Source: Microbacterium sp.
GTDB taxonomy: Bacteria; Actinomycetota; Actinomycetes; Actinomycetales; Microbacteriaceae
Reading direction: 5' to 3'
Length of the DNA: 8,905 nt
Assembly (NCBI GenBank): GCA_029267645.1
Contig: JAJUIM010000062.1
Location: 1-8,905 of the forward strand
Position numbers and translations under genes: made by a program. A model generated the notes under the pieces. That model saw nothing but the letters and a program-made list of their open reading frames with translations, searched no databases and had not been told where the DNA came from. Below, piece by piece: positions 1 to 8,905 of the stretch (the stretch's first letter is position 1; each line of letters begins with the position of its first letter).

Positions 1-106
1 TCCGGCCCAGCCCGTCCCGACCACGGTCATCGACCAGGTGCTCGCGGTCAGTGAGGACGGCAAGCCGCTCGAAGACCACGCCGCCGGAAGCGAGGAGGCC
101 CGCTGA
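1..106 (+). CDS. C-terminal end of glycine betaine/proline ABC transporter ATPase (partial, 5' cut by window edge)
   Basis: Only the last 34 codons are visible, read from base 2 and ending with TGA at 104-106. The peptide ends in an Asp/Glu-rich tail after a stretch (VIDQVLAVSEDGKPL) that resembles the end of a CBS domain, which is what ProV/OpuAA-type ATPases carry after the nucleotide-binding domain. No Walker or signature motif falls inside the window, so the identification rests mainly on position: the stop codon overlaps the start of the ProW-like permease (TGATG, sharing one A), which implies translational coupling, and a substrate-binding lipoprotein follows. In this family the ATPase drives import of a quaternary ammonium osmolyte through the permease. 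Another ATPase class cannot be excluded from 34 residues alone. Confidence 0.7.
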   Translation, partial: PAQPVPTTVIDQVLAVSEDGKPLEDHAAGSEEAR

Positions 107-1068
107 TGCTCGAGAACTTCCACCTGCCGATCGGCGACTGGGCGGACGTCGCCCTCGACTGGTTCAACGACACCTTCACGTGGCTGCTCGACTTCATCGC
201 CGATGTCATCGGCTTCGTCGTCGAGGGTCTGGCCGACGGGCTCGCGTCGGTGCCCACCCTCGTGATGATCGCGATTCTCGCCGTCATCGCGTGGTTCTTC
301 CGCTCGTGGCAGCTCGCGATCGGCACAATCATTACGATGCTGCTGATCGTCGGCATGGATCAGTGGGAGAACGCGATGTATACGCTCGCGCTCATCCTCG
401 TCGCGACCGTCATCGCCGTCGTCATCGCCGTGCCGGTCGGCATCGCTGCGTCGCGCAGCGACACCTTCAGTGCGATCCTCAAGCCGATCCTCGACTTTAT
501 GCAGACGATGCCCGCGTTCATCTACCTGCTGCTCGCGGTCGTGTTCTTCCACATCGGCTTCGTGCCCGGTGTGTTCGCCACGATCCTGTTCTCGGTCGCG
601 CCTGGCGTGCGCATGACCGAGCTCGGCATCCGCGGAGTTGACTCCGAGACCGTCGAGGCGGGCAAGGCTTTCGGCGCCTCGCCCGGACAGATCCTGCGCG
701 GCATCCAGCTGCCGCTCGCGATGCCAACCATCATGGCGGGCGTCAACCAGGTGATCATGCTGTCGCTGTCGATGGCCGTCGTCGCGGGCATGGCCGGCGC
801 GGACGGGCTCGGCAAGGAGGTCATCGCGGCCATCACGACGCTCAACATCCCGCAGGGCATCGAGGCGGGCCTCGGCATCGTCTTCCTCGCCGTGTTCCTC
901 GACCGCGTGACGGCAGCGCTCGGCACGCCGTCCGACTACGCCGGATCGCTGCTCGGCACCATCACGCGCCGCCGGGCCGCGGCCCGGAACGCGCGCGCCG
1001 ACGCCGAGGCAGCGCGCGTCGCGGCCGAGGCGGAGGCAGAGAAGGCCGCAACCGCAGTTCGTCTGTGA
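106..1068 (+). CDS. proW: ProW/OpuAB-type osmoprotectant ABC transporter permease
   Basis: A 320-residue inner-membrane permease of the glycine betaine/proline betaine ABC family. Hydrophobic segments lie near residues 50-65, 69-84, 91-116, 136-166, 206-230 and 252-271. The cytoplasmic coupling loop (EAA motif) that docks on the ATPase is at about 184-203, with E184-A185-G186 and the invariant Gly at 190. The preceding segment, ending in R169-M170-T171-E172-L173-G174-I175, matches the family pattern of an R-(L/M)-T-x-L-G-I stretch before the EAA loop. The N-terminal 48 residues before the first strong membrane segment are partly amphipathic. The C-terminus (about 288-320) is an Ala/Arg/Glu-rich, probably helical cytoplasmic tail, longer than I would expect in the family. 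The start is fixed by the one-base overlap with the upstream ATPase. Substrate is inferred as a betaine-like osmolyte from the binding protein that follows. Confidence 0.92.
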   Translation: MLENFHLPIGDWADVALDWFNDTFTWLLDFIADVIGFVVEGLADGLASVPTLVMIAILAVIAWFFRSWQLAIGTIITMLLIVGMDQWENAMYTLALILVATVIAVVIAVPVGIAASRSDTFSAILKPILDFMQTMPAFIYLLLAVVFFHIGFVPGVFATILFSVAPGVRMTELGIRGVDSETVEAGKAFGASPGQILRGIQLPLAMPTIMAGVNQVIMLSLSMAVVAGMAGADGLGKEVIAAITTLNIPQGIEAGLGIVFLAVFLDRVTAALGTPSDYAGSLLGTITRRRAAARNARADAEAARVAAEAEAEKAATAVRL

Positions 1069-1087
1069 TCCCGACCATCGACCTGCG

Positions 1088-1128
1088 CGGACACCTGTCC
1101 GTTTTCCCCTCTCGCGCCGCCGGCGCGA
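1088..1128 (+). terminator. Two hairpins in the permease to binding-protein gap (attenuator or mRNA-stability element)
   Basis: The 113-bp gap between the permease stop and the lipoprotein start holds two stem-loops. The first is CGGAC (1088-1092), loop ACCT, GTCCG (1097-1101), followed directly by TTTT at 1102-1105, as in a weak intrinsic terminator. The second is TCGCGCC (1112-1118), loop GCC, GGCGCGA (1122-1128). Such structures are known in ABC operons to separate expression of the binding protein from the membrane components. A cryptic promoter for the lipoprotein gene could also sit here, but I see no convincing one. Confidence 0.4.
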
Positions 1129-1181
1129 AAGGATCCCCAACGACCAGCGCCTCAGGGCGCGGGAAGAAAGGAATCATCATC

Positions 1182-2105
1182 ATGATGAAGAAGCACAAGC
1201 TCATGACCCTGATCGGCGCCGGCGTCGTCGGCAGCCTCGCACTCGCCGGCTGCTCGTCGGACGGCGGGTCGAGCGCCGGTGGCGGCGAGGGCGACGGCGA
1301 CAAGACCGTCACGCTCGGCTACCTGCCGTCGTGGACCGACGGCCTGTCGGTTTCGTGGCTGCTGAAGGACCAGCTCGAGAAGCTCGGTTACGAGGTCGAG
1401 ATGGAGGAGCTGACCGAGGCCGGCATCCTCTACACGGGCCTCGCGAACGGTGACGTCGACATCTTCCCGTCGGCCTGGCCCGAGGTCACGCACGCCTCCT
1501 ACATGGAGCAGTATGGCGATGACATCGAGGACCTCGGCACGTACTACGACGGCGCCGTCCTGACGATCGCCGTGCCCGAGTACATGGAGGACGTCAACTC
1601 GATCGAGGACCTCAAGGGTCAGGCCGACCGCTTCGGCGGCGAGATCATCGGCATCGAGCCCAGCGCCGGCCTCACGAAGCAGACGCAGGAATCGATGATG
1701 CCCGAGTACGAGCTCGACGACGAGTACGAGCTGAAGACCTCCTCGACTGCCGCGATGCTCACGACGCTCGAGGACGCGGTCGACAACGAAGAGGACATCG
1801 TCGTCACGCTGTGGCGTCCCTTCTGGGCGAACGACACGTACCCCGTGAAGGACCTCGAAGACCCGAAGGGCGCGATGGGCGAGCCCGAGGGTCTGCACCC
1901 CATGGCCACGAAGGGCTGGGCCGAGGAGAACCCCGAGGCCGCCGAGCTCATCGCGGGCCTCAAGCTCGACGACGCCGCCTACGGCTCGCTCGAGGACACG
2001 GTCGTCAACGAGTACGCCGACGACAATGACAAGACCGAGGCGATCGACGCGTGGATCGAGGAGAACCCTGACGCGTTCGACACGCTGCTGACCGAGGAGC
2101 AGTAG
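1182..2105 (+). CDS. proX: Betaine-type ABC transporter substrate-binding lipoprotein (ProX/OpuAC family)
   Basis: A 307-residue secreted lipoprotein that should capture a quaternary ammonium osmolyte and hand it to the permease encoded just upstream. The start at 1182 is chosen because AAGGA (1168-1172) lies 9 nt upstream and gives a textbook lipoprotein signal: Lys-rich n-region (K3, K4, K6), hydrophobic core, and lipobox LAGC at 21-24 with lipidated Cys24. The open frame extends further upstream, but those residues do not look like signal sequence. A Ser/Gly/Asp linker (25-40) follows, then the OpuAC-type domain. Candidate aromatic-cage tryptophans are W51 (PSWTD), W99 (PSAWP), W211 and W215 (WRPFW). 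The order of motifs follows E. coli ProX (LEKLGY, GLANGD, then WxPxW, then KGWAEENPEAA). The mature protein is very acidic. It is clearly paralogous to the lipoprotein at 2929-3843. Which betaine it prefers cannot be told from sequence. Confidence 0.92.
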   Translation: MMKKHKLMTLIGAGVVGSLALAGCSSDGGSSAGGGEGDGDKTVTLGYLPSWTDGLSVSWLLKDQLEKLGYEVEMEELTEAGILYTGLANGDVDIFPSAWPEVTHASYMEQYGDDIEDLGTYYDGAVLTIAVPEYMEDVNSIEDLKGQADRFGGEIIGIEPSAGLTKQTQESMMPEYELDDEYELKTSSTAAMLTTLEDAVDNEEDIVVTLWRPFWANDTYPVKDLEDPKGAMGEPEGLHPMATKGWAEENPEAAELIAGLKLDDAAYGSLEDTVVNEYADDNDKTEAIDAWIEENPDAFDTLLTEEQ

Positions 2106-2120
2106 GACTCGCACAGCACC

Positions 2121-2152
2121 GGGCGCCCCGAGGACTCGTCCTCGGGGCGCCC
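2121..2152. terminator. Strong bidirectional hairpin between convergent genes
   Basis: A perfect 14-bp stem: GGGCGCCCCGAGGA (2121-2134), loop CTCG, and its exact complement at 2139-2152. It lies 15 bp after the lipoprotein stop and 18 bp before the stop of the convergent GntR gene, so it can serve both strands. No long T-tract follows (GCTTTCG on the plus strand), which is common for actinobacterial terminators. Confidence 0.8.
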
Positions 2153-2170
2153 GCTTTCGCGCGTGGGATC

Positions 2171-2839
2171 CTACGGCGCCTCGAGCTCGCCGCGGATGGC
2201 GGCAGTCGCGCGATCGATCGAGTCCTCGATGACGCTCGCGGCGCGGTCGCCGTCCCTCGCCTCGACGGCGGCGAGCAGATCGTCCTGATACATCCAGGGC
2301 TCGCTGGCCCAGTCGCCGCGCGCGCCGAAGAGCTTGAAGGAGCGGCTGCGGCGCCAGAGGCTCTGGATCGATTCCAGGAGCACGGCGTTGCCGGCAGCGC
2401 GGTAGAGCGCGGTGAGGACGCCCTCGTCGTGCTCGAGGAACGCGGCCTGGTCGCCCGCAGCCGCGGCCGCGCGCGCCGAGCGCGCCTGCGAGCGCATCTC
2501 GGCGATCACACGCGGATCCGCCGCTCCGCCGCCGCGGCGCGCCGCCTCGGCCTCGAGGAGACGCCGCACGTCGTACACCGCGAGCATCTCATCGGCGGAG
2601 AATGCCTTGACGACCGCGCCCTTGTACGGAATCGACTCGACGAGCCCGGCTTCCACGAGCCGCGTCATCGCTTCGCGCACCGGCATGACGCTCGTGCCGA
2701 GCTGCTCCGCGACGTCACGGATCCGCAGCCGGGTTCCCGGCTCGAGCTCGCCGCCGAGGATCGCGGCGCGAAGCGACTCCAGCACCTGGTCGCCGCGGCG
2801 CGCGGTCGGTGCAAGAGGAGGCAAAGACATCTCGCTCAT
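2171..2839 (-). CDS. GntR-family transcriptional regulator, FadR subfamily with FCD domain
   Basis: A 222-residue regulator. Residues about 17-80 form the GntR winged helix-turn-helix, with the recognition region LGTSVMPVREAMTRL (R55-E56-A57 is the usual family signature) and a wing ending at YKGAVV. Residues about 84-212 form the helical FCD effector domain (AVYDVRRLLEAEAA, then YRAAGN). The start at 2839 is supported by GGAGG at 2852-2848, 8 nt upstream. FCD domains usually bind a metal through one Asp and three His. Here the His of the usual FH..L..A.GN motif aligns with L142, the later one with Q185, and the last with S207, so a normal metal site appears absent, although D138 remains. It is divergent from the second binding-protein gene with an 89-bp shared region, so it most likely controls that gene and itself. 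Its effector is unknown. Confidence 0.9.
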   Translation of the reverse strand: MSEMSLPPLAPTARRGDQVLESLRAAILGGELEPGTRLRIRDVAEQLGTSVMPVREAMTRLVEAGLVESIPYKGAVVKAFSADEMLAVYDVRRLLEAEAARRGGGAADPRVIAEMRSQARSARAAAAAGDQAAFLEHDEGVLTALYRAAGNAVLLESIQSLWRRSRSFKLFGARGDWASEPWMYQDDLLAAVEARDGDRAASVIEDSIDRATAAIRGELEAP

Positions 2840-2873
2840 CCTAGGCGCCTCCGCGGCGCGAACTCGTCTTCGA

Positions 2874-2892
2874 TAGGGTGGATGTGATCACA
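2874..2892 (+). promoter_or_regulatory. Candidate promoter and GntR operator in the divergent region
   Basis: TGTGATCACA at 2883-2892 is a perfect 10-bp palindrome of the TGT...ACA type seen in many FadR-subfamily GntR operators. It sits 36 bp before the start of the second binding-protein gene and 43 bp before the regulator start. A possible actinobacterial -10 (TAGGGT, 2874-2879) lies just upstream, so a bound regulator would cover the likely transcription start. No convincing -35 is visible. The palindrome is seen directly; its pairing with this regulator is inferred from position. Confidence 0.45.
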
Positions 2893-2928
2893 GATAACAA
2901 ATGTACGCCAGATCAAGGACGACACAGC

Positions 2929-3843
2929 ATGCAGATGACACGTTCGAAGACCGCCCTTGCCGCAGGATCCGTCGCCGCGCTGCTCGTGCTCGCGGGCTGC
3001 TCGGCCGATTCCTCGGCCTCCTCCGCGGCGGGCGAGGGCGGGGGCGAGCTCGGCACACTCACGATCGGGTACATCCCCTCGTGGACCGACACGCTCGCAA
3101 CCGCCTTCCTCGCGAAGAATCAGCTCGAGAAGCTCGGCTACGAGGTCGAGCTCGAGGAGCTGACCGAAGCCGCGATCGTCTACACCGGACTCGCGAGCGG
3201 CGATATCGACATCTACCCTTCCGCGTGGCCCGATATGACCCACGCGGCATACGTCGAGAAGTACGGCGACGACCTCGAAGACCTCGGCACGTTCTACGAC
3301 CAGGCGCAGAACTTCCTCGCGGTTCCGACCTACACCGACATCGACACGATCGAGGAGCTCGCGCAGAATCCGGACATGTTCGGCGGCGAGATCGTCGGCA
3401 TCGAGCCGAGCGCCGGCCTCACCCAGCAGACCGAGGAGGCGGTCATGCCCGCGTACGGCCTCGATGAGAACTTCTCGCTCGTCACCTCGTCGACCGCCTC
3501 GATGCTCGCCACGCTCGAGGACGCGATGAGCAACGAGGAGGACATCGTCGTCACCATGTGGCGGCCCTACTGGGCGAACGGCTCGTTCGACCTGAAGCCG
3601 CTCGAGGACCCGGATGGTGCGATGGGCGAGCCCGAGACGATGCACACCTTCGCCACGAAGGGATTCTCGGAGGAGTTCCCGGAGGCCGCCGAGTACTTCG
3701 CCGGCTTCGAACTGGACGACAGCGAGTGGAGCTCGCTCGAGGACCTCGTCGTCAACGAGTACGGCGACGGCGAGGAGGACGCCGCGGTCGAGCAGTGGAT
3801 CGCAGACAACCCCGACGCGTACGAGACGCTCGACGCCGAGTGA
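2929..3843 (+). CDS. Second betaine-type substrate-binding lipoprotein, paralogue of the one at 1182-2105
   Basis: A 304-residue ProX/OpuAC-type lipoprotein. The start at 2929 is preferred because AAGGA (2915-2919) lies 9 nt upstream; an ATG two codons later and an upstream GTG at 2878 are less well placed. Signal peptide: positively charged start (R5, K7), hydrophobic core, lipobox LAGC at 21-24 with Cys24, then a Ser-rich linker. Key residues match the paralogue: W52 (PSWTD), W100 (PSAWP), W211 and W215 (WRPYW), and the segments QLEKLGYEVE, GIEPSAGLT, NEEDIVVT and AMGEPE are shared. Differences include F60 where the paralogue has W59, and many changes in the second half. No permease or ATPase gene is next to it, so it probably feeds the transporter encoded upstream, widening its substrate range or affinity. 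Expression is likely set by the divergent GntR regulator. Confidence 0.9.
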   Translation: MQMTRSKTALAAGSVAALLVLAGCSADSSASSAAGEGGGELGTLTIGYIPSWTDTLATAFLAKNQLEKLGYEVELEELTEAAIVYTGLASGDIDIYPSAWPDMTHAAYVEKYGDDLEDLGTFYDQAQNFLAVPTYTDIDTIEELAQNPDMFGGEIVGIEPSAGLTQQTEEAVMPAYGLDENFSLVTSSTASMLATLEDAMSNEEDIVVTMWRPYWANGSFDLKPLEDPDGAMGEPETMHTFATKGFSEEFPEAAEYFAGFELDDSEWSSLEDLVVNEYGDGEEDAAVEQWIADNPDAYETLDAE

Positions 3844-3856
3844 CCGAGCCCGAGAC

Positions 3857-3898
3857 GGCAGACGCCCCCGGATCCAAGTGGATCCGGGGGCGTCTGCC
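3857..3898. terminator. Long perfect hairpin between convergent genes
   Basis: A 19-bp perfect stem (left arm 3857-3875, right arm 3880-3898) with a 4-nt AAGT loop, 13 bp after the lipoprotein stop and 12 bp before the ettA stop. It can terminate both converging transcripts. No U-tract follows. Confidence 0.85.
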
Positions 3899-3910
3899 AC
3901 CTCGCCGCGC

Positions 3911-5593
3911 TCAGTCGCGCGTGAGCTTGCGGTGCGTCGTGCGGTGCGGGCGCGCGGCGTCGGGGCCGAGGCGCTCGATCTTGTTCTGCTCGTACGCCTC
4001 GAAGTTGCCCTCGAACCAGTACCAGTTGGCGGGGTTCTCGTCGGTGCCCTCATAGGCGAGGATGTGCGTCGCGATGCGGTCGAGGAACCACCGGTCGTGC
4101 GTGACGACCACGGCGCAGCCGGGGAACTCGAGCAGCGCGTTCTCGAGCGACTGCAGCGTCTCGACGTCGAGGTCGTTCGTCGGCTCGTCGAGCAGCAGCA
4201 CGTTGCCGCCCTGCTTGAGCGTGAGCGCGAGGTTCAGGCGGTTGCGCTCGCCGCCCGACAGCACGCCGGCCTTCTTCTGCTGGTCGGGGCCCTTGAAGCC
4301 GAACTTCGACACGTAGGCGCGCGATGGCACCTCGGTCTTGCCGACCATCATGATGTCGAGCCCGTCCGAGACGACCTCCCAGAGCGTCTTCTCGGGGTCG
4401 ATGCCGCCGCGCGTCTGGTCGACGTAGCTCAGCTTCACGGTCTCGCCGACCTTCAGCTCGCCGCCGTCGAGCGGCTCGAGGCCGACGATCGTCTTGAAGA
4501 GCGTGGTCTTGCCGACGCCGTTCGGGCCGATGACGCCGACGATGCCATTCGGCGGCAGGCTGAAGCTCAGGTCGTCGATGAGCACGCGGTCGTCGAAGCC
4601 CTTGCGGATGTTCTTGGCCTCGATGACGATGTTGCCGAGGCGCGGCCCCGGCGGGATCTGGATCTCCTCGAAGTCGAGCTTTCGCGTGCGCTCGGCCTCG
4701 GCCGCCATCTCCTCGTAGCGCGCGAGGCGGGCCTTCGACTTCGCCTGGCGGCCCTTCGCGTTCGACTTGACCCACTCCAGCTCATCCTTGAGGCGCTTCT
4801 GGAGCTTCGCGTCCTTCTTGCCCTGCACCTCGAGGCGCGCGGCCTTCTTCTCGAGGTAGGTCGAGTAGTTGCCCTCATACGGGTACAGGCGACCGCGGTC
4901 GACCTCGGCGATCCACTCGGCGACGTGGTCGAGGAAGTACCGGTCGTGCGTGATCGCGATGACGGCGCCCTGGTACTGCTGCAGGTGCTGCTCGAGCCAG
5001 AGCACGCTCTCGGCGTCGAGGTGGTTCGTGGGCTCGTCGAGGAGCAGCAGGTCGGGCTTCTCGAGCAGGAGCTTGCACAGCGCCACGCGGCGCTTCTCGC
5101 CACCCGACAGGTGCGCGATCTGCGCGTCGCCCGGGGGCGTGCGCAGCGCGTCCATCGCCTGCTCGAGCTGCGCGTCGAGATCCCACGCGTCGGCCGCGTC
5201 GATCGCCTCCTGCAGCGTGCCCATCTCGGCGAGCAGCGCGTCGAAGTCGGCGTCGGGCTCGGCCATGAGCGCCGAAATCTCGTTGAAGCGGTCGAGCTTG
5301 CCCTTGATGTCGGCGACGCCGTCCTGCACGTTCTCGAGCACCGTCTTCGACTCGTCGAGCTCGGGCTCCTGCATGAGGATGCCGACCGAGAAGCCGGGCG
5401 AGAGCGCGGCCTCGCCGTTGGACGGCTGATCGAGACCCGCCATGATCTTGAGGATCGTCGACTTTCCGGCGCCATTGGGGCCGACCATGCCGATCTTCGC
5501 TCCGGGGAGGAACGACATCGTCACGTCGTCGAGGATCACCTTGTCGCCCACCTTCTTGCGGGCGCGAACCATCTGATAAATGTACTCAGCCAT
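3911..5593 (-). CDS. ettA: Energy-dependent translational throttle protein EttA (ABC-F ATPase)
   Basis: A 560-residue soluble ABC-F protein, close to the 555 residues of E. coli EttA. Such proteins bind the ribosomal E site and gate the first peptide bonds according to the ATP/ADP ratio. NBD1: Walker A GPNGAGKST (38-46), signature LSGGE (162-166), Walker B with catalytic E187, H-loop H216. The arm insertion that contacts ribosomal protein L1 lies between about 92 and 140. The P-site tRNA interaction linker spans about 245-318 and is rich in Lys/Arg (LEWVKSN, GRQAKSKARLARYEE), typical of EttA. NBD2: Walker A GPNGVGKTT (356-364), LSGGE (445-449), E470, H-loop H499. The C-terminus ends in a short His/Arg-rich tail. 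No strong Shine-Dalgarno precedes ATG 5593. The neighbouring ssb paralogue lies in the same order in mycobacteria, as I recall. Confidence 0.97.
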   Translation of the reverse strand: MAEYIYQMVRARKKVGDKVILDDVTMSFLPGAKIGMVGPNGAGKSTILKIMAGLDQPSNGEAALSPGFSVGILMQEPELDESKTVLENVQDGVADIKGKLDRFNEISALMAEPDADFDALLAEMGTLQEAIDAADAWDLDAQLEQAMDALRTPPGDAQIAHLSGGEKRRVALCKLLLEKPDLLLLDEPTNHLDAESVLWLEQHLQQYQGAVIAITHDRYFLDHVAEWIAEVDRGRLYPYEGNYSTYLEKKAARLEVQGKKDAKLQKRLKDELEWVKSNAKGRQAKSKARLARYEEMAAEAERTRKLDFEEIQIPPGPRLGNIVIEAKNIRKGFDDRVLIDDLSFSLPPNGIVGVIGPNGVGKTTLFKTIVGLEPLDGGELKVGETVKLSYVDQTRGGIDPEKTLWEVVSDGLDIMMVGKTEVPSRAYVSKFGFKGPDQQKKAGVLSGGERNRLNLALTLKQGGNVLLLDEPTNDLDVETLQSLENALLEFPGCAVVVTHDRWFLDRIATHILAYEGTDENPANWYWFEGNFEAYEQNKIERLGPDAARPHRTTHRKLTRD

Positions 5594-5603
5594 CGTGGCA
5601 CCC

Positions 5604-5609
5604 AGTCTA
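5604..5609 (-). promoter_or_regulatory. Possible -10 element of ettA
   Basis: On the minus strand TAGACT (5609 to 5604) matches the actinobacterial TANNNT -10 pattern and ends 10 nt before the ettA ATG, which would give a leader of only a few bases. There is no convincing -35 and no good ribosome binding site upstream of the ATG, consistent with a nearly leaderless message but not proving it. Confidence 0.3.
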
Positions 5610-5656
5610 CGGGGAAAACGCCCGCTCGCCCGGGCACGTGAGCGTCGTCACGCGAT

Positions 5657-5678
5657 CCGCGCCGGGCGGCGGGCGCGG
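5657..5678 (-). terminator. Weak hairpin downstream of the ssb paralogue
   Basis: Read from the minus strand, an inverted repeat lies 19 bp after the ssb stop: CCGCGCC (5657-5663) pairs with GGCGCGG (5672-5678) across an 8-nt loop. An outer pair GATCCG/CGGATC (5654-5659 and 5686-5691) could compete. There is no T-run. It may end ssb transcription or may only be chance in GC-rich sequence. Confidence 0.35.
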
Positions 5679-5696
5679 GACCAGACGGATCCTCGA

Positions 5697-6200
5697 TCAG
5701 AACGGTGTGAGCGCCGCCTCCTCGAGCGCGGCGGGCGCGCCCTCTTCGCCATCGGCGTCGGCCGGCGGATCCGGCGCCTCGGGCACCGCGGGCAGCCACT
5801 CCTCCCCCTGCGCCTCGGCGTCCTGCTCGGCTTTGCGCCCCGCCGATGTGCGCTCATAGCCCGTGACCTTGCCCCAACGCAGATCGATGCCGAGGGCATC
5901 GGCCTTCACATTGACGTTGACGCCCGAGCGCTCATCGCGCTCCCAGTCGCGCACCTCGAGCGTGCCCGAGGCGACGACGCGCATGCCCTTGCTGACCGAC
6001 TTGATCGTGTTCTCGGCGAGCGTGCCGTAGGCGAAGACGGTGTACCAGTTCGACGCGCCGTCGCGCCACTGCCCGCTTTCCGCGTCGCGGAACCGGTGGG
6101 TGCACGCGACACGGAAGCGCGTGTAGATCGTGCCCGTGTCGGTCTTCGCGACGATCGGCTCGGTCGCGACGTTGCCCGCGACCGTGATGTGTTCGGCCAT
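5697..6200 (-). CDS. ssb: Single-stranded DNA-binding protein (SSB paralogue)
   Basis: A 167-residue protein with an N-terminal OB fold of the SSB family at about 1-112: ITVAGNVATEPI, F29-R-V-A-C strand, an aromatic-rich segment with W45 and W52 (SNWYTVFAYG), then MRVVASGTLEVRDWERD. It should bind single-stranded DNA. The start at 6200 is secure: AGGAGG (6211-6206) is 5 nt upstream. The C-terminal third (113-167) is Ala/Pro/Glu-rich and disordered, ending in EEAALTPF. Only the last two residues match the usual acidic DDDIPF tip that recruits partner proteins. I think this is the accessory SSB of actinobacteria rather than the replication SSB, which normally sits between rpsF and rpsR; I recall the same arrangement beside ettA in mycobacteria. 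It could act in recombination or competence, but the sequence does not say which. Confidence 0.88.
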   Translation of the reverse strand: MAEHITVAGNVATEPIVAKTDTGTIYTRFRVACTHRFRDAESGQWRDGASNWYTVFAYGTLAENTIKSVSKGMRVVASGTLEVRDWERDERSGVNVNVKADALGIDLRWGKVTGYERTSAGRKAEQDAEAQGEEWLPAVPEAPDPPADADGEEGAPAALEEAALTPF

Positions 6201-6256
6201 GACGGCCTCCTCTCTGTGGACGACCGGGGATCCGGCCGTTCACAGCGTCGCGCGAA

Positions 6257-6287
6257 CGCCCCTCCGTGCGCGGGGCACGGAGGGGCG
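6257..6287 (-). terminator. Terminator hairpin downstream of msrA
   Basis: A perfect 13-bp stem, CGCCCCTCCGTGC (6257-6269) with its complement at 6275-6287 and a 5-nt loop. It lies 51 bp past the msrA stop on the minus strand and upstream of the ssb ribosome binding site, so msrA and ssb are probably separate transcription units. Confidence 0.75.
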
Positions 6288-6338
6288 AAGTGGAACAACT
6301 CGGCGCGACGCGAGGATGTGAGCGCGCTGACCCGCGGA

Positions 6339-6884
6339 TCAGGCGGCGCGGTACTCCGAGAAGCGAGCGCGGACCTTGTTGACCTTCGGCACCGCGACGG
6401 CGAGGCAGTAACCCTGCGTCGGGTTCTTCGCGAAGAAGTCCTGGTGGTACTCCTCGCCGTCCCAGAACGTGCCGAGGGGCTCGATCGTCGTGACGACCGT
6501 GCCCTCGACGTCGCCGAGCGGTGCGTCCCACAGATCTGAGGCGCGACGGCGAGCGGTCTCGAAGACCTCGCGCTGCGCGTCGTCGGCGTAGAACATGGCC
6601 GAGCGGTACTGCGTGCCCGTGTCGGCGCCCTGGTGATTGAGCTGCCGCGGGTCGTGCATCGTGAAGTACGCGTCGAGGATGACCTCCTGCGGGATCACCT
6701 CGGGGTCGAACGTCACCTTGACGGCCTCGGCGTGGCCGGTCGCCCCCGTGCACACCTGCTCGTAGGTAGGCTGCGGCGCGGCGCCGCCCGTGTAGCCGGA
6801 GACGACGGACTCGACGCCGCGAAGGGCGCGGTAGGCCGCGTCGAGACACCAGAAGCAGCCGCCGGCGAGGACGAAGGTCTGCAT
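6339..6884 (-). CDS. msrA: Peptide-methionine (S)-S-oxide reductase MsrA
   Basis: A 181-residue MsrA, normal length for the family. It reduces methionine-S-sulfoxide in proteins and free methionine, restoring oxidised proteins in the cytoplasm. The active-site motif GGCFWC sits at residues 8-13, with catalytic Cys10; C13 is the fourth residue of the motif. GYTGG (30-34), the GHAEAV segment (50-55), the HDPRQLNHQGADTGTQYRS block (77-95) and GYC (158-160) are all present, with C160 the likely resolving cysteine regenerated by thioredoxin. ATG 6884 is preceded by AAGGAG (6899-6894) at 9 nt spacing. A possible -10 (TACCGT, minus strand 6942-6937) lies upstream without a clear -35. No MsrB domain is fused or adjacent. 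Confidence 0.97.
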   Translation of the reverse strand: MQTFVLAGGCFWCLDAAYRALRGVESVVSGYTGGAAPQPTYEQVCTGATGHAEAVKVTFDPEVIPQEVILDAYFTMHDPRQLNHQGADTGTQYRSAMFYADDAQREVFETARRRASDLWDAPLGDVEGTVVTTIEPLGTFWDGEEYHQDFFAKNPTQGYCLAVAVPKVNKVRARFSEYRAA

Positions 6885-6990
6885 GGGAACACACTCCTTG
6901 AGGTCGGGATGGGCGCCGCTCAGCGGGCCTTCCTCAACGGTACGCGCGTCAGGGAAGACGGGCGCCGCGTGGCCTGTCAGTGATACCCGG

Positions 6991-6996
6991 TAACCT
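6991..6996 (+). promoter_or_regulatory. Possible -10 element of the tRNA-Arg/orn unit
   Basis: TAACCT matches TANNNT and ends 9 nt before the first base of the mature tRNA, so transcription would begin a few bases upstream of the acceptor stem. No good -35 is visible at normal spacing. Confidence 0.35.
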
Positions 6997-7005
6997 GGTG
7001 GGCGA

Positions 7006-7077
7006 CCCCCAGTAGCTCAGTGGAAGAGCAGAGGCTTTCTAATCCTTAGGTCGGGTGTTCGAATCGCCCCTGGGGGA
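7006..7077 (+). tRNA. tRNA-Arg (anticodon UCU)
   Basis: A cloverleaf can be drawn through 72 nt: acceptor CCCCCAG (7006-7012) pairs with CTGGGGG (7070-7076); D arm GCTC/GAGC (7015-7018, 7026-7029) with A in the position-20 region, an arginine identity element; anticodon loop TTTCTAA (7036-7042), anticodon TCT at 7038-7040 reading AGA; T arm GGGTG/CGCCC (7053-7057, 7065-7069) with loop TTCGAAT. Discriminator A7077. CCA is not encoded. The anticodon stem is imperfect: pair 31-39 is C7035 opposite T7043 and 27-43 is G-U. The orn start codon is 38 nt downstream, so the two are probably co-transcribed and the tRNA cut out. Confidence 0.93.
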
Positions 7078-7114
7078 CGGCTACGTCACGCTGGAGAGAG
7101 AAGAGTGCACGACT

Positions 7115-7738
7115 GTGGGCGCACCTGAGAACGATCGGCTCGTCTGGATCGACTGCGAGATGACGGGGCTCGACCCCGCAACCGATGAGCTGGTCGAGAT
7201 CGCGGTCGTCGTGACCGACTTCGACCTCAAGATCCTCGACCCGGGCCTGCAGATCGTCATCAAGCCCTCCGAGGCGGCGCTCGCGAACATGGGCGACTTC
7301 GTGACGAAGATGCACGCGACGAGCGGCCTCGACAAGGAGATCCCCCACGGCGTGGATCTCGCGGACGCCGAGCGCCAGGTGCTCGACTACGTCAAGCAGT
7401 TCGTGCCCGTCGAGCGCAAGGCGCCCCTCGCAGGCAACACGATCGGCACCGACCGCATGTTCCTCGCAAAGTACATGCCCGAGCTCGACGGCTTCCTGCA
7501 CTATCGCAACGTCGACGTGTCGAGCATCAAGGAGCTCGCACGCCGCTGGATGCCCCGCGTCTATTTCCAGGCGCCCGAGAAGAACGGCGGCCACCGCGCG
7601 CTGGCCGACATCCTCGAATCGATCCGCGAGCTGCAGTACTACCGCCGCACGGCGTTCGTCGCGGATCCCGGCCCCACGACTGACGAAGCCCGGGCCGTAG
7701 CTGAGAATGTCGTGAACGAGTTCGCGCAGAACCTATGA
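7115..7738 (+). CDS. orn: Oligoribonuclease (DEDDh 3'-5' exoribonuclease)
   Basis: A 207-residue Orn, which degrades 2-5 nt RNA fragments, and the c-di-GMP breakdown product pGpG where present, to mononucleotides. Exonuclease motifs: Exo [11 protein letters not shown] at 11-20 with D13 and E15; the Exo II Asp lies in the [14 protein letters not shown] region; Exo III H-x-A-x-x-D in GHRALADI near the C-terminus supplies the general-base His and last Asp, followed by the typical [10 protein letters not shown]. The GTG at 7115 is preferred because it gives the family's normal length; the frame is open back into the tRNA-Arg gene (an ATG at 7055 lies inside the tRNA and is not credible). The ribosome binding site is only fair (purine-rich GAGAGAGAAG ending about 11 nt upstream). 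Placement directly before tRNA-His also occurs in mycobacteria, as I recall. Confidence 0.96.
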
Positions 7739-7777
7739 CAAAATAGACGGGTTGCCCGCTGCGGCGGGATCGACATG

Positions 7778-7853
7778 GTGGCTGTAGCTCAGCTGGTAGA
7801 GCACCGCGTTGTGGTCGCGGGGGTCGCGGGTTCAAGCCCCGTCAGCCACCCCA
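7778..7853 (+). tRNA. tRNA-His (anticodon GUG)
   Basis: Acceptor GTGGCTG (7778-7784) pairs with CAGCCAC (7843-7849); D arm GCTC/GAGC; anticodon stem CCGCG/CGCGG (7804-7808, 7816-7820) with loop TTGTGGT and anticodon GTG at 7811-7813; T arm GCGGG/CCCGT with loop TTCAAGC. G7777 before the acceptor can pair with discriminator C7850, giving the G-1:C73 pair that marks tRNA-His. CCA at 7851-7853 is present in the DNA, unlike in the neighbouring tRNA-Arg. It begins 39 bp after the orn stop and may be co-transcribed with it. Confidence 0.97.
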
Positions 7854-7856
7854 CTC

Positions 7857-7887
7857 ACGGCCCCGGCATCGTGCCGGGGCCGTTCTT
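7857..7887 (+). terminator. Rho-independent terminator after tRNA-His
   Basis: A perfect 12-bp stem, ACGGCCCCGGCA (7857-7868), loop TCG, complement at 7872-7883, followed by a T-rich tail (TTCTTCGTTT). It ends the tRNA-Arg/orn/tRNA-His unit just before the repeat array. Confidence 0.88.
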
Positions 7888-7914
7888 CGTTTCGGCGGAC
7901 GTGCGCGGGCGCTC

Positions 7915-7970
7915 TCCCGAGTGCCGCGGCGCCCTCGCATGGGCCCCGGAGGGCGTGTTCGCACTCGGGA
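7915..7970 (+). repeat. Palindromic unit 1
   Basis: Both arms match consensus (7915-7924 and 7961-7970). Inner stem GCCCTC 7931-7936 with GAGGGC 7949-7954. A second, nearer GGGC lies at 7941-7944. Confidence 0.9.
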
Positions 7971-8018
7971 ACGCGTATGCGAGCGGGGACGCACCGCCAC
8001 AAAACGCCGCGCTGCCGC

Positions 8019-8074
8019 TCCCGAGTGCCGCGGCGCCCTCGTGCAGGGTGCAGAGGGCGTGTCAGCACTCGGGA
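8019..8074 (+). repeat. Palindromic unit 2
   Basis: Both arms match consensus (8019-8028 and 8065-8074). Inner stem GCCCTC 8035-8040 with GAGGGC 8053-8058. The 6-nt linker CGCGGC is shared with unit 1. Confidence 0.9.
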
Positions 8075-8134
8075 GTGCGACGCGGCGACCGTGGCCACGG
8101 CCGCCGGTACGCCATTCACGCGCGGCAGCACGCC

Positions 8135-8190
8135 TCCCGAGTGCCGAACTGCCCTCGGGCGGGCGTTACAGGGCGTGTTCGCACTCGTGA
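8135..8190 (+). repeat. Palindromic unit 3
   Basis: Left arm matches consensus (8135-8144); right arm is GCACTCGTGA (8181-8190), one mismatch. The linker CGAACT can partly pair with the opposite linker GTGTTC through GAAC/GTTC. Very similar to unit 5, including the flanking sequence to the right. Confidence 0.9.
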
Positions 8191-8229
8191 GCGTGCGCAC
8201 GCACGCCTGGACGAGCCAGCGGCGCTATC

Positions 8230-8239
8230 GCACTCGGGA
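8230..8239 (+). repeat. Remnant: solitary right arm
   Basis: GCACTCGGGA followed by ACGCG, as after full units, but with no left arm or inner stem. The preceding GACGAGCCAGCGGCG resembles the sequence before unit 6 (GACGAGCCGGCAGCG), so this is probably a unit that lost its left part. Confidence 0.75.
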
Positions 8240-8275
8240 ACGCGGAAGCATCGCCGCGGACCGCCACACCGCCGC

Positions 8276-8331
8276 TCCCGAGTGCGGCGGCGCCCTCGGA
8301 CAGGGCGCGCAGGGCATGTTCGCACTCGGGA
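8276..8331 (+). repeat. Palindromic unit 4
   Basis: Both arms match consensus (8276-8285 and 8322-8331). Inner GCCCTC 8292-8297. AGGGC occurs twice downstream, at 8302-8306 and 8311-8315, so GCCCT can pair with either. Confidence 0.9.
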
Positions 8332-8391
8332 GCACGGCGCGATCAGCACAGCCAAGGCCGCGGTGCGCCGTCCGCACGCGGCCGCACCGGC

Positions 8392-8447
8392 TCCCGAGTG
8401 CCGAACTGCCCCAGGGCGGGCCTTACAGGGCGTGTTCGCACTCGGGA
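8392..8447 (+). repeat. Palindromic unit 5
   Basis: Both arms match consensus (8392-8401 and 8438-8447). Inner left element is GCCCCA (8408-8413) instead of GCCCTC. Nearly a copy of unit 3, 257 bp away. Confidence 0.9.
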
Positions 8448-8480
8448 GCGTGCACACACGCTTCGACGAGCCGGCAGCGA

Positions 8481-8537
8481 GTCCGAGCGCCGCCGGCGCC
8501 CTCGGGCGGGCCGCCGAGAGCGTCGTCACCCTCGGGA
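8481..8537 (+). repeat. Palindromic unit 6 (degenerate)
   Basis: Left arm GTCCGAGCGC and right arm ACCCTCGGGA both differ from consensus and pair poorly. The spacing is kept except for one extra base before GCCCTC (8498-8503). Confidence 0.75.
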
Positions 8538-8578
8538 ACGCGCACGCGAACGCACTGCGGCAGAACGCCGACCGCCAC

Positions 8579-8634
8579 TCTCGATTGCCGCGCCGCCCTC
8601 GGCCGGGGCGTGGAGGGCGCGAACGCACTCGGGA
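8579..8634 (+). repeat. Palindromic unit 7
   Basis: Left arm TCTCGATTGC (8579-8588) has two differences from consensus; the right arm (8625-8634) is exact. Inner GCCCTC 8595-8600 and GGGC 8615-8618 are retained. Confidence 0.85.
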
Positions 8635-8671
8635 ACGCACGCGCCACCGACCGCAATGCGCGCGCTGCCGC

Positions 8672-8727
8672 TCCCGAGTCCCGATACGCCCTCGTGCAGG
8701 GCATAGCGGGCGTGTCCGCACTCGGGA
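8672..8727 (+). repeat. Palindromic unit 8
   Basis: Left arm TCCCGAGTCC (8672-8681) has one difference; right arm exact (8718-8727). The right arm with its flanks (8714-8728) is identical over 15 bases to 8816-8830 in the RNase H gene. Confidence 0.88.
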
Positions 8728-8777
8728 ACGTGGGGCGGACGAGGGGTGCGCGGGGGCGGGGCTCAGGGGCGGCTCAG

Positions 8778-8783
8778 TACGCT
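8778..8783 (+). promoter_or_regulatory. Likely -10 element of a leaderless RNase H transcript
   Basis: TACGCT fits the actinobacterial TANNNT pattern and ends 6 nt before the ATG, the distance expected if transcription begins at the start codon itself. No Shine-Dalgarno sequence lies before the ATG, which fits. A -35 match is not evident. Confidence 0.55.
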
Positions 8784-8789
8784 GATCGG

Positions 8790-8905
8790 ATGACGATCAT
8801 CGCCGCTGCCGACGGGTCCGCACTCGGGAATCCCGGCCCCATGGGCTGGGCCTGGTACATCGACGACGAATCGTGGGCCGCGGGGGGATCGCCGCACGGC
8901 ACGAA
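8790..8905 (+). CDS. rnhA: Ribonuclease HI, N-terminal part (runs off the window)
   Basis: The first 38 codons are visible. The opening MTIIAAADGSALGNPGP carries the hallmark of type I RNase H: first beta strand, catalytic D8 at the start of DGS, then the LGNPGP turn, followed by GWAWYIDD as the second strand. The enzyme cuts the RNA strand of RNA:DNA hybrids and needs three further acidic residues beyond the window. No ribosome binding site is seen; a -10 placed 6 nt before the ATG suggests leaderless expression. Codons 9-14 contain the 15-base stretch shared with the right arm of palindromic unit 8. In some actinobacteria RNase HI is fused to another domain; that cannot be judged here. Confidence 0.9.
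   Translation, partial: MTIIAAADGSALGNPGPMGWAWYIDDESWAAGGSPHGT

Follow-up and report, generated by a model that had tools for sequence, protein, structure and literature searches.

Short palindromes that are dispersed between genes and also flank the gene of a DNA-acting enzyme are known from repetitive extragenic palindromic (REP) sequences and REPINs with their REP-associated tyrosine transposases (RAYTs; REPtrons) and from TIRtrons, as outlined in parts of two studies (PMC3733652, PMC3116915). Long paired sites are also recognized by two other kinds of protein. According to the portion of the AbiEi study drawn on here, two AbiEi monomers sit on two 23-bp inverted repeats, and in Rv2827c pairs 13 bp lie between the repeats, for a total of 59 bp by our own sum (PMC7319586). 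The EDxHD homing endonuclease I-Bth0305I is described, in a section of its report, as forming a dimer on a target site almost 60 bp long (PMC3943268). MTES_1575_REase was introduced as a novel Vsr-REase in a passage that mentions no palindromes (PMC3710099). Here we describe an array of eight palindromic units in a contig of Microbacterium sp. (JAJUIM010000062.1, positions 1 to 8,905, assembly GCA_029267645.1; this whole stretch of 8,905 nt is called the window), together with a predicted nuclease gene that, on another contig of the same genome, has units of this kind on both sides.

Flanking of the cognate enzyme gene, a trait of REP/RAYT systems, was found here at 52 of 69 loci with a different enzyme, a predicted nuclease with AbiEi-like and Vsr/EDxHD-like parts instead of an HUH tyrosine transposase. 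The palindromes also differ in spanning ~56-61 bp as two half-sites and in forming an array of eight full units. The earlier note on this DNA had proposed a RAYT as a possible mover, but Y1_Tnp (PF01797) was detected neither in this genome (0/1) nor in any of 40 Microbacterium genomes including it, while 5 of 14 control genomes were positive. Since the defining enzyme was not found, the system works like REP/RAYT yet is no member of that group. Unlike I-Bth0305I, the nuclease is chromosomal, lies beside ordinary genes and carries an N-terminal AbiEi-like part, and complete copies of its presumed target flank the gene instead of being interrupted by it. In contrast to the AbiEi/Rv2827c antitoxin-repressors of type IV toxin-antitoxin systems, the AbiEi-like part is fused to a nuclease and the sites also occur downstream and dispersed; no AbiEii-like toxin gene was noticed beside the nuclease among neighbors read by eye at a few loci. 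We read the system as a REP/RAYT-like partnership with an unrelated enzyme, and the array of the window as its tandem expansion. Searches of the open-access PMC literature, some of them directed at this pairing and all judged by titles and the starts of abstracts, brought up no description of it.

An array of paired half-sites

The earlier note had reported eight elements with a constant internal ruler and loose spacing, and this arrangement was recovered at 7915-8727, where seven units are 56 bp long, one is 57 bp and the spacers measure 33-85 bp. The features are as follows, none being assigned to a strand:

7915..7970, palindromic unit 1, 56 bp, exact arms
8019..8074, palindromic unit 2, 56 bp, exact arms
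8135..8190, palindromic unit 3, 56 bp, 1 arm mismatch
8230..8239, orphan half-site (ninth, a single arm), GCACTCGGGA, beginning 46 bp ahead of unit 4
8276..8331, palindromic unit 4, 56 bp, exact arms
8392..8447, palindromic unit 5, 56 bp, exact arms
8481..8537, palindromic unit 6, degenerate, 57 bp, 5 arm mismatches
8579..8634, palindromic unit 7, 56 bp, 2 arm mismatches
8672..8727, palindromic unit 8, 56 bp, 1 arm mismatch

The units fit the pattern TCCCGAGTGC-N36-GCACTCGGGA with 0-5 arm mismatches each. The window contains four pairs of exact 9-bp arms spaced 30-44 bp apart; 200 dinucleotide shuffles yielded no such pair. Among 22 aligned 56-bp units from the whole genome, the outer arms and the inner GCCC/GGGC were conserved, whereas the six positions that separate an outer from an inner arm were paired in 2, 10, 8, 4, 4 and 15 units. 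Pairing at each of these positions did not exceed the expectation from column composition. The units therefore resemble a pair of inverted half-sites of 22 bp with a constant separation (22 + 12 + 22 bp in the window unit) more than a single continuous hairpin.

A structured-RNA array, one of the roles suggested earlier, gained no ground. The Rfam scan of the window returned two tRNAs and nothing else, and compensatory changes stayed within reach of shuffling in all three sets of elements considered. Paired cells in the units of this genome numbered 387 of 616 (shuffle mean 403.5), and double-compensated cells numbered 15 in these units (shuffle mean 15.7), 43 in those of M. suaedae (mean 33.7, maximum 47) and 10 in the type-a elements introduced below (mean 5.4, maximum 12).

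The assembly is fragmented (477 contigs, 2.37 Mb; the window is contig C170) and holds 24 units on four contigs, with seven on C303, six on C360 and three on C9 besides those of the window; this count leaves out five further arm pairs that have other lengths or overlap a listed unit. That 22 of the 24 units are exactly 56 bp, the other two being 57 bp, bears out the proposal that the element itself is the unit. When spacing was left free, 43 bp was the commonest box-to-box distance on these contigs, with 16 cases against two for the runner-up. M. suaedae has 27 matches to the fixed 56-bp pattern at up to three mismatches, and since its loci were chosen by that pattern, their 43-bp box distance is partly built in. 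Because spacers recur along with units, both in C9 and as one family in the window array, the arrays of this genome look as if units and spacers had later been duplicated together in tandem. A contig-end open reading frame (ORF) that we take to be IstB-like (L048:2-289) adjoins the C303 array. A search of viral_contigs, a set apart from the phage and plasmid record collections, gave no exact match to the element. The element search also matched Arthrobacter and Chloroflexi sequences, the latter apparently an unrelated CTGAGTC repeat.

A predicted nuclease gene and its matching palindromes

A 313-codon gene on the minus strand of C360 (575-1516) has units to its left and to its right. The model of its product (predicted local distance difference test score, pLDDT, 95) predicts an N-terminal AbiEi-like DNA-binding part and a C-terminal part resembling Vsr and the EDxHD homing endonucleases; in the model, the E, D, H and D residues of the Vsr-like fold are present, position 247 being D in 26 of 35 sequences and E in 9. 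Likeness to the Vsr-like MTES_1575_REase and DUF559 proteins consists of weak Pfam matches (PF18741, PF04480) under the curated cut-offs, and sequence searches of NCBIfam and the PDB gave no significant name. The PADLOC models of anti-phage defense proteins matched none of four Microbacterium proteins and gave a fifth protein, L285, a weak mREase_II match (E 0.0027). Homologues at E ≤1e-10 are present in 328 of 366 genomes of the genus, with an element of the same kind on both flanks in Microbacterium sp. G2-8, M. suaedae, G336 and G113, where the homologue matches in pieces and looks broken. The genome of the window also has a second, distant homologue (35%; G000:C404:10799-11635).

The homologue of G042 carries on both flanks a palindrome of unrelated sequence, and the flanks of homologues were therefore compared. 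For each, 300 bp to the left and to the right were searched for a shared segment scoring at least 20. The genus loci comprised 30 returned by the search and 40 taken down a list of ~150 places, some of them skipped (several at contig ends), and the genus control genes came from loci chosen for holding palindromes. The flanks shared a segment, mostly palindromic, at 52 of 69 homologue loci and around 2 of 202 control genes, the two positives being the G042 nuclease itself and a gene between copies of yet another palindrome. Nine of ten further genus loci were also positive. Outside the genus, 11 of 18 loci and 1 of 83 control genes were positive; by group, these were 4 of 6 loci in other genera of the family and 7 of 12 in other families, with 0 of 2 in family f12. 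Self-complementarity beat all 100 shuffles in 22 of the 29 segments shared in direct orientation. Before span was measured, eight of the 52 were set aside because they were long or of low complexity; a palindrome was obtained from 38 of the other 44 segments, and the median span was 59 bp.

The palindrome sequence tracks nuclease similarity, like going with like and unlike with unlike, and this includes three pairs within single genomes. Palindromes of the type found in the window were matched in the four genomes with the closest nuclease (21 in the window's own genome, 22 in G353, 4 in G081 and 2 in G336) and were absent from 353 of 366 genomes. These observations make a partnership between nuclease and palindrome well supported.

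A second type bears on dispersal. The type-a palindrome was taken from beside the nuclease gene of G119, and a blastn search for it covered 34 hand-picked genomes, 14 with type-a or type-a-like flanks as judged by eye and 20 of other types. It was matched in 6 of the 14 and in none of the 20; in the eight type-a-like genomes without a match, the palindromes may be too divergent for blastn. Strand matches numbered 22 each in G119 and G115 (~11 places), 10 each in G062 and G327, 8 in G374 and 5 in G065. Copies are often near-identical across sites, and each of the 22 elements read from the G115 and G119 genomes was 57 or 58 bp long, with 56-60 allowed. When ten windows from each of these two species were compared, five corresponded and five per species were unpartnered among the windows compared. 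One corresponding place was empty in the other species, the blastn ends setting ~107 bp against 7 bp (L319 versus L300); a second candidate (L313 versus L321) lay too close to a contig end.

Between the upstream palindrome and the nuclease start lies a conserved sequence resembling a DnaA box, CTGTGGANAAC; in L196 (C360) it is 47 bp before the match start. Within ~200 bp upstream, TGTGGA was found on either strand at 59 of 69 loci compared with 36 of 483 control genes, and on the gene's own strand at 49 of the 69. A DnaA box with up to one mismatch was found at 36 of 69 loci and in 9 of 483 controls (p 6e-29, uncorrected for relatedness). Any link of CTGTGGANAAC to replication is a guess. The nuclease gene stands beside an imuA-like gene in four species (L049, L164, L172, L198); two others have it next to a prfA-like gene (L174, L202; all names by eye), and these differing neighborhoods suggest a cassette with at least two chromosomal homes. 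In G2-8 (L060), other neighbors of the imuA-like region are shared.

Proposed mechanism and rival explanations

Taken together, the array is probably a cluster of the kind of element that flanks the nuclease gene, and the nuclease likely binds the half-sites, would cut or nick the DNA there and would thereby spread the elements. Given how closely the spans of AbiEi/Rv2827c and I-Bth0305I sites agree with those of the unit and its family, we propose that one protein molecule would occupy each 22-23-bp half-site through its AbiEi-like part, setting the 56-59-bp ruler, and that both nuclease parts would meet between the half-sites. Such a model would account for a fixed ruler with a free center, for conserved half-sites without clear compensation, and for orphan half-sites as products of decay. 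Cutting or nicking at the element could then lead to its copying into fresh positions between genes, and the arrays of this genome might have arisen afterwards, as units and spacers were duplicated in tandem. We infer spread by cutting and copying because the elements are dispersed, their copies are often near-identical, they occur together with the matching type of nuclease, and one site differs in presence between two species. More tentatively, the palindromes may represent a new class of actinobacterial selfish DNA, in which every palindrome type (~56-60 bp) has an AbiEi-Vsr fusion nuclease that would bind, cut and spread it, with the gene itself travelling in a cassette of palindrome, DnaA box, nuclease and palindrome whose activity would be tied to replication.

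Several observations weigh against this picture. Binding, cutting and mobility are themselves what we infer; the AbiEi match of the model has a high root-mean-square deviation, and Foldseek returned nothing below E 0.001 for it. The flank test failed at 17 of 69 genus loci, including M. suaedae and G081 loci in which boxes or palindromes are visible by eye, and, beyond the genus, at 7 of 18 (both f12 loci and five more). Not all of the 52 shared segments are neat palindromes, as some are long or of low complexity, and many loci are kin by descent, so the counts are not independent. Only one clean empty site was found, and it shows no recognizable target duplication. Partners do not always coincide: G181 has four palindromes of the window type, and its best homologue is 47% identical and flanked by another palindrome; G096 has one such palindrome and no homologue at 1e-10; and G133, G134, G152, G156 and G220, also without a homologue at that threshold, reach 8-17 matches (controls 4-7) in counts from the loose pattern only, their elements being unread. 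Palindromes without a close nuclease may be orphaned, may have a partner that is too divergent, or may mark where the idea is wrong.

The same fixed spacing without clear compensatory change would suit plain protein binding, and AbiEi-family proteins autoregulate through inverted repeats, in the part of PMC7319586 cited above. The palindromes could then be operators or insulators of the AbiEi-like protein, serving autoregulation upstream of the gene and some other purpose downstream, with dispersed copies forming a regulon or chromosome-organizing sites and no mobilization. We consider this unlikely, as palindromes also lie downstream of the gene, near-identical copies occupy many sites and tandem arrays occur. 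Gene orientation points the same way: elements were intergenic in the examined loci (one cluster labeled "coding" includes a stray box within the neighboring gene), and elements lay in 33 gaps of 80 bp or more, of which 13 were convergent, 14 tandem and only 6 divergent, poor places for operators. Comparable gaps without an element (n = 211) were convergent in 30 cases, tandem in 101 and divergent in 80. This convergent enrichment (13/33 versus 30/211, Fisher p 0.0012) and the intergenic placement are what bidirectional terminators or stabilizers of RNA 3´ ends, accumulated beside nuclease genes by happenstance, would show. That explanation is nonetheless very improbable: no T-run was seen, an ordinary terminator-like hairpin stands beside several elements (by eye in G081, G113, G042 and G044, and after tRNA-His in the window), the compensatory changes are within the shuffle range, and nuclease-specific palindrome sequences are left unexplained.

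As the earlier note had suspected, these are REP-like elements in being dispersed and intergenic, at REP-like places, and they have a probable protein partner. That they are classical REPs or miniature inverted-repeat transposable elements (MITEs), moved by a RAYT or a DDE transposase, is the least credible of these explanations, given the absence of Y1_Tnp from all 40 genomes (DDE transposases were not searched for), the lack of a target duplication at the sole empty site, and a flanking enzyme that is a nuclease of another superfamily. If movement is indeed driven by the nuclease, the system would form a class of its own, in which evolution would have solved the REP/RAYT problem independently for a second time, with a homing-type nuclease in place of a transposase. 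CGTC REPs apparently lack a dedicated transposase, according to the part of PMC3733652 consulted; for such palindromic repeats without a RAYT and with no known mover, nuclease pairing offers a concrete candidate mechanism. The pairing is found across an order and gives an otherwise anonymous array of repeats a place in a defined genetic system; its matched nucleases and targets are possible tools for long-site DNA recognition.

Related palindromes and the surroundings of the array

The CGAGTGC box also occurs in other geometries in other Microbacterium genomes, many single elements having only two or three exact boxes:

Box positions 0, 19, 24, 43: G113
Box positions 0, 19, 52, 71: G042, G051, G068
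Box positions 0, 19, 42, 61: G044
Four-box palindrome loci: L177-L184 (G042), L185-L187 (G044), L188-L190 (G068), L194-L195 (G051)

In the four-box palindromes (CGAGTGCACGG and similar; G042, G044, G068, G051), direct boxes 19 bp apart are followed by an inverted pair. A loose box pattern was present in 283 of 366 genomes, with the reversed control about equally common in most of those listed, so that only high counts are informative; such counts suggest four-box palindromes in more genomes, several without a nuclease homologue at 1e-10. The G113 flanks (L173:1325-2329) hold a further palindrome family around TTCCGGGTGCGCACATGGT, and a similar motif was seen by eye in the flanks of a second M. 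suaedae nuclease (L226).

The genes bordering the array are:

7778..7853, plus strand, tRNA-His, upstream of the array, Rfam match
8791..8903, plus strand, start of an RNase HI-like gene with a DGSALGNPGP motif, downstream of the array, running off the window

A terminator-like hairpin follows tRNA-His at ~7859-7890 (by eye). Comparison of the interval between tRNA-His and rnhA across the genus, as had been advised, showed that it is not conserved: no convincing rnhA match was present in the up to 1.5 kb available after tRNA-His in 30 other genomes, in two of which a contig end cuts the locus short within 60 bp. ORFs of some length, listed mechanically, cross the array. A codon-usage gene caller placed no gene wholly within it and none between 7738 and 8610; the window's final frame was opened at 8610, a position that falls in the array. 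By eye we prefer the ATG at 8791 for this frame, presumably RNase HI-like from its motif. Inside the frame, TCCGCACTCGGGAA (8811-8830) has 14 bp identical to the right half-site of unit 8, probably by chance, as the segment encodes the residues S-A-L-G-N of the motif. Farther upstream, the window holds a similar pair of OpuAC-type glycine betaine binding-protein genes (1065-2105 and 2878-3843) with a GntR/FCD regulator between them, the regulator and the second gene being named by Pfam and the first by eye.
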